64,000 nucleotides of DNA. Source: Jiulongibacter sp. Lineage in GTDB: Bacteria; Bacteroidota; Bacteroidia; Cytophagales; Spirosomataceae. Positions within the stretch are counted from its first letter, which is position 1. Each line of letters starts with the position of its first letter. Location: positions 1 to 64,000 of the forward strand of contig JAHEBN010000002.1 of NCBI GenBank assembly GCA_024645245.1, written 5' to 3'. Shown one piece after another: positions 5,197 to 37,848 of this stretch. The notes beneath the pieces were generated by a model. That model worked only from the letters and a program-made list of their open reading frames with translations. It was not told where the DNA came from and ran no database searches. A program made the translations under genes and the position numbers.

Positions 5197-6171
5197 ATGC
5201 AATCTGATCCTTTCTTAAGCCTGATAAATAAGACTTTGGCCGAAATAAAATACGGAGATTCACCTGCAGAATTATACGACCCTATTTCGTATATCATGTC
5301 TTTGGGTGGAAAAAGAATGAGACCAATTGCCACCCTGATGGCTTGCCAATTATTTGATCCGGCATGGCAAAAGGCCATAAAACCAGCCATAGCTGTTGAG
5401 GTTTTTCATAATTTCACCCTCATGCACGACGATATTATGGACGGAGCTCCGCTACGCCGGGGTAAACCAACAGTACATGAAAAATGGAATCGTGATATAG
5501 CCATACTTTCCGGGGATGTGATGCTGGTGGCGGCTTATGAATTAATGGGCGAAGTACCCGAAAAACACTTGAAAAAAGTGCTGAAAAGATTCAATAAAAC
5601 AGCCGCTGAAGTGTGTGAAGGTCAGCAGTTAGATATGAATTTTGCTACGCAAAACAATGTGACGGAAGCGGATTACATCAATATGATCCGGCTAAAGACC
5701 AGTGTACTTCTGGGTTTTGCTTTAGAACTCGGTGCAATAATAGCTGATCAGGCTGATGAAGTGAGTCATAGTTTATTCGAAATTGGCGTGAATCTGGGTC
5801 TTGGTTTTCAACTGAAAGACGACATTTTGGATGTATACGGTGACCCCGAAAAGTTTGGTAAACAAGTTGGGGGAGACATCATCGAAAACAAAAAAACCTG
5901 GCTTATGCTCAAGGCATTTGAGCTTTCGGCCGGAAAAGAAATAGGTCACGAACTTAAAACCTGGATCGATAAAAAGAATTTTGACCCGGCAGATAAAGTT
6001 GCCGCAGTTACGGCAATTTTTAATGAATTAGGAATTAAAGAATTGGCGGAAAATGAAATGAACGGGTATTTTAATACAGGTTTTGGTGGCATAGACCGCC
6101 TGAAATGTGACTTTGAAAAAAAGAAACCATTGATTGCATTTGGGGAGTATTTGTTGGGAAGGGAACATTAA
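5197..6171 (+). CDS. Polyprenyl synthetase (short-chain trans-isoprenyl diphosphate synthase)
   Basis: A 324-residue protein with both aspartate-rich motifs of the family: FARM DDIMD (Asp78-Asp82) and SARM DDILD (Asp208-Asp212), which bind the Mg2+-diphosphate of the allylic substrate, plus the GGKRMRP motif that binds isopentenyl diphosphate. Phe73, five residues before the first FARM aspartate, is a bulky residue at the position that limits chain length, which favours a C15-C20 product (farnesyl or geranylgeranyl diphosphate). Such a product would feed quinone, heme O or carotenoid synthesis. The exact product is inference. It converges with the MFS gene at 6174, only 2 bp away. Confidence 0.88.
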   Translation: MQSDPFLSLINKTLAEIKYGDSPAELYDPISYIMSLGGKRMRPIATLMACQLFDPAWQKAIKPAIAVEVFHNFTLMHDDIMDGAPLRRGKPTVHEKWNRDIAILSGDVMLVAAYELMGEVPEKHLKKVLKRFNKTAAEVCEGQQLDMNFATQNNVTEADYINMIRLKTSVLLGFALELGAIIADQADEVSHSLFEIGVNLGLGFQLKDDILDVYGDPEKFGKQVGGDIIENKKTWLMLKAFELSAGKEIGHELKTWIDKKNFDPADKVAAVTAIFNELGIKELAENEMNGYFNTGFGGIDRLKCDFEKKKPLIAFGEYLLGREH

Positions 6172-21468: not shown

Positions 21469-21570
21469 TTTGAAAATTTAAGATATCAGATTGTTTAAAC
21501 ATTTTAGCATTGTTAAGGTTAAGATTTAATTAGTTTAATTTTCTAAACCCTTTTTAATCAAAGCGTAAAA

Positions 21571-22446
21571 ATGAGTGCCTATTCTATCAGAGATCTGGAG
21601 AATCTTTCGGGTATTAAGGCCCATACTATTCGTATTTGGGAACAGCGGTACAGCATTGTGAAACCCTCCAGAAGCGACACCAATATCAGAACTTACGACG
21701 ATGAAGATCTGAAACGAATTCTCAACATTTCAGTACTTAAAGATAAGGGTTTCAAAATTTCTAAAATAGCCGGATTGAGCAGCGACGAGCTTTGCGATAA
21801 AGTTTTTTCATTATCCGAAGAAAACCTGCAGTATCCCGATCAGATTCACAACCTCACGGTGGCCATGATCGATATGGACGAAGAGCGATTTGAGAAAATA
21901 ATATCGCAGTGTATACTTCAGTATAATTTTGAAAATACGATGATAAATATCATCTATCCATTTCTTAGTCGCATTGGTACACTCTGGATGACGGGTTCCA
22001 TTGGCCCGGCACAGGAGCATTTTATCACGCATCTTATACGGCAAAAAATGATTGTGGCTATTGACGGTCAAATTGTGCGACCGAATGAGCATTCGAAAAA
22101 ATTTGTACTTTATCTGCCTGAAGGAGAGATGCACGAAGTGGGGCTCTTGTTTGCCAATTATATACTTCGGGCCCGTAACCACCGGGTTTTTTATCTGGGT
22201 CAAAGTTTACCTTTTGATGACTTGAGTTATGTTTACGAAAACCACCAGCCCGATTATCTTTTTTCTTCTATAACTTCTGTGCCCGGCCCGGATGCGATAA
22301 AAGTTTATATTGAAAAGCTGGGTAATAAATTTCCGGATGTTAAAATTTTACTTACCGGGTATCAGGTAGTGGGCCATTTGTATAAAATTCCAGCAAATGT
22401 GCAGATCATTAGTAATGTTAATCAATTGATTGAGATTGCAGAATAA
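21571..22446 (+). CDS. MerR-family regulator with cobalamin-binding domain, CarH/LitR-like photoreceptor candidate
   Basis: A 291-residue protein: MerR winged-helix domain (about residues 1-72, with HTIRIWEQRY), a four-helix domain (about 85-165) and a B12-binding Rossmann domain (about 170-290). The light-sensor residues of CarH are all present: the Wx9EH motif (Trp139, Glu149, His150) that covers the adenosyl face, and the ExHxxG motif with His188 as lower cobalt ligand. In CarH adenosylcobalamin holds a tetramer on DNA in the dark and light breaks it, inducing carotenoid genes. No carotenoid gene is adjacent; it stands 102 bp behind the AraC gene. Family firm, light sensing inferred from conserved residues. 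Confidence 0.9.
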   Translation: MSAYSIRDLENLSGIKAHTIRIWEQRYSIVKPSRSDTNIRTYDDEDLKRILNISVLKDKGFKISKIAGLSSDELCDKVFSLSEENLQYPDQIHNLTVAMIDMDEERFEKIISQCILQYNFENTMINIIYPFLSRIGTLWMTGSIGPAQEHFITHLIRQKMIVAIDGQIVRPNEHSKKFVLYLPEGEMHEVGLLFANYILRARNHRVFYLGQSLPFDDLSYVYENHQPDYLFSSITSVPGPDAIKVYIEKLGNKFPDVKILLTGYQVVGHLYKIPANVQIISNVNQLIEIAE

Positions 22447-37281: not shown

Positions 37282-37848
37282 ATGACTAAAGTTGTCTCCT
37301 TGTTTGTTGAAGAATATGAACTTGCCCGTGCCATAAAACAAGGTGATCAAAAAGCTTTGAAGTTTTTTTATGAAAAATATTCTGGAAAAATGCTGGCAAT
37401 ATGTATGAGATATTTATCGGATAGAATGCTTGCTGAAGATGTGATGATAGAGGCATTTATGAAAATATTTGATAAAATCGGGCAGTTTAGTTTTCAGGGT
37501 AGTTTTGAAGGTTGGGTAAAGCGAATAATGGTTAACGAATCTTTGATGAAACTCAGATCAATGAAAATGTTAGAACTTGATATTGAATCACAAAATATTC
37601 AGCTTCCAAGCACATCAATGAATGATTCGTTGGCGGAAAAGGAAATATTAGCTATGATAATGGACTTACCGGCAGGTTATCGCACGGTTTTTAATTTATA
37701 TGCTATTGAAGGTTTTTCTCATGCCGAGATTGCAGAAAAGCTAGGGATAAGTGAAGGTACATCTAAATCCCAACTTAGCAGGGCCAGGGCGATTTTGCAA
37801 AGTAGAATTAATGAAAGTGAAAAAGGAATCAAACAAAATTTTGATTAA
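37282..37848 (+). CDS. ECF-type RNA polymerase sigma factor
   Basis: A 188-residue sigma-70 family factor reduced to regions 2 and 4. Region 2 (about residues 20-90: MLAICMRYLSDRMLAEDVMIEAFMKIFDKI) binds the -10 element and core polymerase, and region 4 (about 125-180: LPAGYRTVFNLYAIEGFSHAEIAEKLG, then GTSKSQLSRAR) reads the -35. It starts a three-gene unit with an apparent membrane-anchored partner and a barrel protein; the next start codon follows its stop directly. This is the layout of sigma/anti-sigma envelope signalling units of Bacteroidota. Confidence 0.9.
   Translation: MTKVVSLFVEEYELARAIKQGDQKALKFFYEKYSGKMLAICMRYLSDRMLAEDVMIEAFMKIFDKIGQFSFQGSFEGWVKRIMVNESLMKLRSMKMLELDIESQNIQLPSTSMNDSLAEKEILAMIMDLPAGYRTVFNLYAIEGFSHAEIAEKLGISEGTSKSQLSRARAILQSRINESEKGIKQNFD

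Follow-up and report, generated by a model that had tools for sequence, protein, structure and literature searches.

What does a regulator that looks like a cobalamin-based light sensor control when no pigment gene lies beside it? The question is raised by a MerR-type B12 protein encoded in a 64,000-nucleotide stretch of DNA from Jiulongibacter sp. (hereafter the window). An earlier note had read the protein, from the sequence alone, as a CarH/LitR-like B12 light sensor. In other bacteria, CarH-type regulators use vitamin B12 to turn genes on when there is light. This is still the best reading, as judged by the predicted fold, the motifs and the published light-response signature. The best explanation of the locus, considered reasonably probable, is that it encodes a Bacteroidota CarH, a putative AdoCbl-dependent dark repressor that would act on an ECF-crtIB operon through an inverted repeat (dyad).

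The protein and its cobalamin pocket

The reading frame (Table 1) contains the Pfam domains MerR_1 (PF13411, 1.5e-16) and B12-binding_2 (PF02607, 6e-12), and its nearest PDB entries by sequence are those of Thermus thermophilus CarH/LitR (5c8d/3whp, E about 1e-17). Every part of CarH is present in the AlphaFold model (pLDDT 89.9). The best Foldseek matches to the model are T. thermophilus CarH (TtCarH) entries 5c8e/5c8d (E about 5e-15), and its B12 domain superposes on residues 78-275 of the TtCarH CBD with a Z of 21.4 and an rmsd of 2.9 over 195 residues. The presence of the Rossmann half in the model sets the protein apart from class II LitR (PplR/PmlR). The NCBIfam TransRegCarH equivalog NF052513 is the top-scoring family, yet it is matched with 95.3 bits against a curated cut-off of 400, and the protein is a different subfamily from that equivalog. 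The motif RxWExRY (R21-x-W-E-x-R-Y) is present, with R21, W23, E24 and R26 invariant in 113 relatives. Because the Wx9EH motif, the lower histidine, the domain order and the light signature are all in place, we file the protein as CarH-type, in a putative distinct Bacteroidota subfamily.

Table 1. Features of carH and of the candidate operator (C276 is a contig of the same genome)
Feature	Position	Strand	Remarks
carH-type gene, 291 aa	21571..22446	+	intact ORF, ATG to TAA
carH upstream region	21469..21570	+	one palindromic half-site TGTTTAAACA at 21492-21501, no complete dyad
MerR winged HTH	residues 4-69		
DNA-recognition segment SGIKAHTIRIWEQRY, residues 13-27	21607..21651	+	K16 co-varies with operator arm in the family
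Four-helix B12-binding_2 bundle	about residues 87-165		
W139 (= TtCarH W131), then M140 where TtCarH has H132	21985..21990	+	AdoCbl upper face; W139 codon 21985-21987
E149-H150 (= TtCarH E141-H142)	22015..22020	+	upper face
Rossmann B12-binding half	about residues 175-291		
ExHxxG motif, E186-M-H188-E-V-G191	22126..22143	+	H188 = lower axial ligand (TtCarH H177)
T262-G263 at GG place of classic B12-binding motif	22354..22359	+	T or S in 95/113 relatives
Dyad TTTTGTTTAA-N16-TTAAACAAAA	C276:2605-2638		upstream of own ECF-crtI, spans -7 box
Second, weaker dyad copy	C276:2658-2691		

The residues to which the earlier note had pointed, Trp139-x9-Glu149-His150 and His188 of the ExHxxG motif, are present as described. 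In an alignment of 113 Bacteroidota homologues W139 is invariant, E149 is kept in 110, H150 in 111, E186 in all 113 and H188 in 107, and this near-invariance indicates that the match to the CarH ligand residues is not due to chance. Its wider claim that all ligand residues are there holds for W139, E149, H150 and H188 but not for the H132 equivalent, which is methionine, nor for the GG pair, which is TG. In TtCarH, H132 is the upper ligand of cobalt in the bis-His light state. No histidine occupies this place in any of the 113 relatives, in which the residue following the tryptophan is Q, L, V, M, I, T or A. Histidine is found after the tryptophan in many, not all, CarH homologues and is thus no defining CarH feature (PMC9304148). 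The H132A variant of TtCarH reportedly fails to monomerise, and CtMerR, which has Arg at the same place, still dissociates in the light from tetramer to monomer (PMC11796333).

The classic B12-binding motif is ExHx2Gx41SxV/Tx22-27GG (PMC8156234). Here S233-I-T235 stands at exactly x41 and GG is replaced by T262-G263; the serine of SxV/T varies among S, A, V and I in relatives, and together with the GG to TG change this alters the pocket on the DMB side. The light-response signature of B12 domains, GxxW / EH / GxxH / GxxxP (PMC11796333), is found in full as G136-W139, E149-H150, G185-H188 and G210-P214.

The loss of the first glycine of GG and the lack of a histidine at the H132 place would suit a protein that has kept the fold and lost the use of B12, in the manner of CarA or class II LitR, with light sensed by another protein (a short LOV protein, as for PmlR2) or not at all. 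CarA is a B12-independent paralogue without the tryptophan of Wx9EH. Both that tryptophan and the Rossmann half are present here, the Ado-contact residues and the lower histidine are intact and nearly invariant in the family, and all four elements of the light-response signature can be recognized. Class II LitRs do work without B12, light reaching them through another protein (PMC9758184), and such loss does happen within the present family, in a Saprospiria clade that has given up the lower histidine and either E149 or H150. On balance, a loss of B12 use is unlikely for the window protein, and the AdoCbl-dependent reading is preferred.

The Saprospiria clade is monophyletic (L154, L164, L167, L172, L175). 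Its lower-axial histidine is replaced by glutamine, the tryptophan is kept, and neither crt genes nor dyads were found near its carH genes; it likely represents a second, independent CarA-like loss of B12 use. A single other relative (L045, genome G019) has only the lower-axial His to Gln change, and the dyad before its ECF-crtI genes is kept with a spacer of N17 (L237:5798).

Carotenoid genes and the neighbourhood of carH

The genome from which the window comes was searched by family, by protein and by pattern, and carH encodes the sole MerR-type B12 protein found in it. A second PF02607 protein, a 1270-aa frame, is by its length and domain probably methionine synthase. Cob(I)alamin adenosyltransferase, a source of AdoCbl, is present in this genome and in 51 of the 53 family genomes searched. 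Phytoene synthase and desaturase genes lie on contig C79, and on contig C276 an ECF sigma gene comes before the beginning of crtI. As the gene order matches that of a relative (locus L061 of genome G033), C79 and C276 probably belong to a single locus. A cruF-type gene is split across the ends of contigs C115 and C274. Both the crtI and the cruF-type gene are broken at contig ends, which leaves the assembly with incomplete carotenoid loci.

It is true of this genome, as had been pointed out before, that no carotenoid gene lies beside carH, and comparison with relatives explains this by a lineage-specific rearrangement. Cytophagales relatives have clusters of the order cruF-crtZ-carH-site-ECF sigma-crtI-crtB, and the order in Algoriphagus is cruF-crtZ-carH-ECF-crtI-crtB. 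The cruF gene (PF04240) lies no more than 2 kb from carH in 30 of the 37 family genomes that have both; the genomes closest to the window in the tree are among the seven in which it does not, which makes the unlinked carH a derived state. Among 80 named loci an ECF gene is near carH in 41 and crtI with crtB in 26, and carH directly adjoins crtI-crtB or crtB in five family genomes.

Pairs of carH and an ECF gene also occur without crt genes, mostly in MAGs labelled Bacteroidales (L169, L173-L174, L176-L188), and folE, SDR, SRPBCC-like and photolyase genes are among the neighbours of such pairs (L169, L174, L176, L185). A MAG labelled Thalassovita (Pseudomonadota) has a Bacteroidota CarH (L132), probably on a contaminating contig.

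Within the window itself, the short-chain prenyl synthase gene mentioned in the earlier note does encode a PF00348 protein (4.7e-73, 5197-6171, + strand). It could supply prenyl diphosphates, and nothing ties the gene to carH. The AraC gene adjoining carH is not conserved beside carH in relatives and was left out. A second, distant ECF sigma-type match lies at 37354-37809 on the + strand (E 1.8e-5 to the crt-linked ECF factor).

An inverted repeat as candidate operator

The targets of the protein had been called unknown, and a candidate target operator can now be proposed from sequence comparison at the ECF-crtI-crtB genes on contig C276. Each of 13 relatives has the core GTTnAAC upstream of its ECF gene, with 26 copies in all where 1.9 would be expected, and the core resolves to the dyad TTTTGTTTAA-N16-TTAAACAAAA. 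Its spacer is N16 in 29 matches, N17 in 2 and any other length in 0-2, as counted in loci retrieved through protein similarity rather than through a DNA pattern. The Bacteroidetes -7 box TAnnTTTG stands at an offset of 15-16 from the dyad in 17 of 19 cases, so that a protein bound to the dyad would cover the promoter. In L050 and L093, each with a carH-crtI-crtB operon, the dyad overlaps the start of carH; in L091 it is located between divergent carH and crtB. GTTnAAC is not enriched in cruF promoters, and cruF is therefore not claimed as a direct target. The Jiulongibacter genome has the exact full dyad at N16 spacing only at the ECF-crtI genes of C276; when 2 mismatches are allowed, C276 alone stands out, counts elsewhere being close to those of the control, and no further regulon members are therefore claimed in this genome.

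The CarH operators of Thermus, Bacillus and Myxococcus are built from a TnnACA half-site (PMC8156234, PMC9304148) arranged as 11-bp direct repeats. The dyad arm TAAACA (also TCAACA, TGAACA and TAGACA) fits this half-site. The 11-bp repeat operators suggested earlier for crt genes were not borne out: triple TnnACA repeats at 11 bp are absent from 667 kb of carH loci, and the inverted repeat is found instead. The tandem nAnnTnnACAn operator of characterised CarH proteins, which is no stated criterion of the family, is thus not the type seen here. We infer an old half-site contact and a different presentation of the DNA-binding domains by the oligomer. Autoregulation through 11-bp repeats upstream of carH, also suggested before, is unsupported here, as this promoter has the half-site only (Table 1), and a search of the window for the full dyad gave three matches with 3 mismatches each, which is the level of chance.

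When 395 Bacteroidota genomes were scanned, 46 of them contained the dyad, with 149 strand matches (a perfect palindrome counts once on each strand); a reversed-pattern control gave 5. CarH is present in 42 of these 46 and in 42 of the 349 genomes that lack the dyad (Fisher 2e-28); within the class the figures with and without CarH are 42/1 against 28/27 (7e-8). These Fisher values overstate independence, because the pattern was defined from the ECF promoters of the same family and the genomes are related. The 28 CarH genomes of the class without an exact dyad indicate that operators drift or were lost. Thirty of the sites were read. The dyad stands at carH-crtI, at carH-ECF-crtI and at ECF promoters, and further at folE/PTPS, at a DPRP gene with a flavin reductase, at an SDR with an SRPBCC-like gene, and at fasciclin, CHRD, GDSL, GSDH, M28 peptidase and DUF2867 genes. 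Fasciclin-type genes, which code for secreted proteins, lie directly 3′ of the dyad in four genomes (L198, L202, L211, L215).

This list of genes bears on whether the protein might be a regulator of cobalamin status, which would sense the supply of AdoCbl with light as a secondary input. As AdoCbl would hold the oligomer together, low B12 could in principle derepress in the same way as light. The genes at the dyad are photoprotective (crt, folE/PTPS, photolyase-related) and not B12 or methionine genes, and such a role is improbable next to that of a light-responsive repressor.

The dyad might also be read by another regulator or by the ECF factor itself, CarH merely travelling with the same genes, as could be suspected because it precedes ECF genes in many genomes. 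Flavobacteriaceae-like genomes (f7) have the dyad at carH-crtI with no ECF gene in between, and its half-site, TAAACA/TAGACA, agrees with the TnnACA core that CarH operators have (PMC9304148). Two genomes of one genus (G018 and G058 of genus g19) encode a divergent CarH in which Ser takes the place of K16 in the recognition segment, and in both of them the carH and the crtI promoter carry the changed dyad TGTCTAA-N16/17-TTAGACA. Neither a CarH match nor a dyad at crtI was found in a third genome of that genus (G044) or in genome G029. The arms thus change together with the recognition helix at two loci per genome, and the two genomes without CarH lack the dyad at crtI. This co-variation, with the changed form in two genomes only, is the strongest evidence that CarH itself would read the dyad, and a different reader has accordingly been given little weight.

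Proposed mechanism, known systems and significance

The preferred reading, a CarH that acts as a dark repressor, would work as follows. In the dark, AdoCbl clamped between H188 as lower axial ligand and the face formed by W139, E149 and H150 would keep the DNA-binding oligomer together, and this oligomer, bound to the dyad, would cover the -7 box of the ECF gene and hold ECF-crtI-crtB off. Light would break the Co-C bond and the oligomer would fall apart; production of the ECF factor and of phytoene desaturase and synthase would follow, and with it a build-up of carotenoids. Further genes may then be activated by the ECF factor, and in other Bacteroidota the same dyad may also serve folE/PTPS, photolyase-related and other photoprotective genes. 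The model predicts AdoCbl binding, photolysis, a change of oligomer state, binding of CarH to the dyad, repression as the sign of control and an ECF cascade; dark repression with release in light is suggested by the behaviour of the CarH family and the overlap of the dyad with the -7 box. Counting against it are the separation of carH from any carotenoid gene in this genome, the lack of a full operator of its own, the changed DMB-side pocket and the absence of the bis-His residue of TtCarH.

The protein resembles the CarH of T. thermophilus, Bacillus megaterium and Myxococcus xanthus (class I LitR) in its MerR domain and four-helix plus Rossmann B12 domain, in Wx9EH and the lower histidine, and in the TnnACA half-site, the predicted control of crt genes and a candidate operator placed over the promoter. 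It differs from them in sequence (22-23% identity), in having Met, Val, Leu or Gln and not His after the tryptophan and TG or SG in place of GG, in an inverted repeat with a fixed 16-bp spacer as against tandem 11-bp direct repeats, and in its main candidate target, an ECF-crtIB operon, with cruF linked in relatives. In the LitR-LitS system of Streptomyces an ECF sigma factor stands between the light regulator and the crt genes. In both systems a CarH/LitR gene is linked to that of an ECF sigma factor standing ahead of the carotenoid genes, which suggests a second regulatory tier; the present one belongs to another phylum, and its ECF gene is co-directional with crtI-crtB in one operon. For the class II LitRs PplR/PmlR of Pseudomonas, too, the sites come in pairs that overlie promoters, T(G/A)TACA-N12-TGTA(C/T)A (PMC9758184). 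These proteins share with the present system a light regulon with folE and photolyase genes, here a putative one, and paired promoter sites, but they have no Rossmann half or B12, receive the light signal from a short LOV protein, and use an N12 spacer and other arms. The B12 photoreceptor CtMerR of Chloracidobacterium (8jbs/8jbt) scores a Z of 20.5 against the model and also has no His at the H132 place, where it has Arg, but shows 15% identity and another DNA-binding domain. MliR (PMC9478572), a MerR protein of Bacteroidetes, was considered and set aside, as it is described without a link to B12 or CarH.

It is somewhat better than an even chance that these proteins form a separate photoreceptor class, a Bacteroidota CarH with the inverted-repeat operator retaining the ancestral TnnACA, a light state without bis-His cobalamin, and a phylum-wide light regulon (ECF sigma-crtIB, folE/PTPS, photolyase-related, fasciclin and SDR/SRPBCC genes). 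No paper on CarH or a CarH operator in Bacteroidota was found in the freely accessible literature searched. In lit soils and waters, pigmented Bacteroidota abound. The carotenoids of some, such as Chryseobacterium lacus, are made in the light only, by a mechanism described as unknown (PMC7064467). With a defined candidate operator such light-dependent pigmentation becomes testable, and the genes of the light regulon can be predicted for every genome sequenced. The CarH variant, which differs in its DNA site and probably also in its light state, is in addition a candidate for green-light gene switches. A putative sensor whose targets had been called unknown now has testable candidate targets, and the DNA sites that it probably reads can be traced across the phylum.
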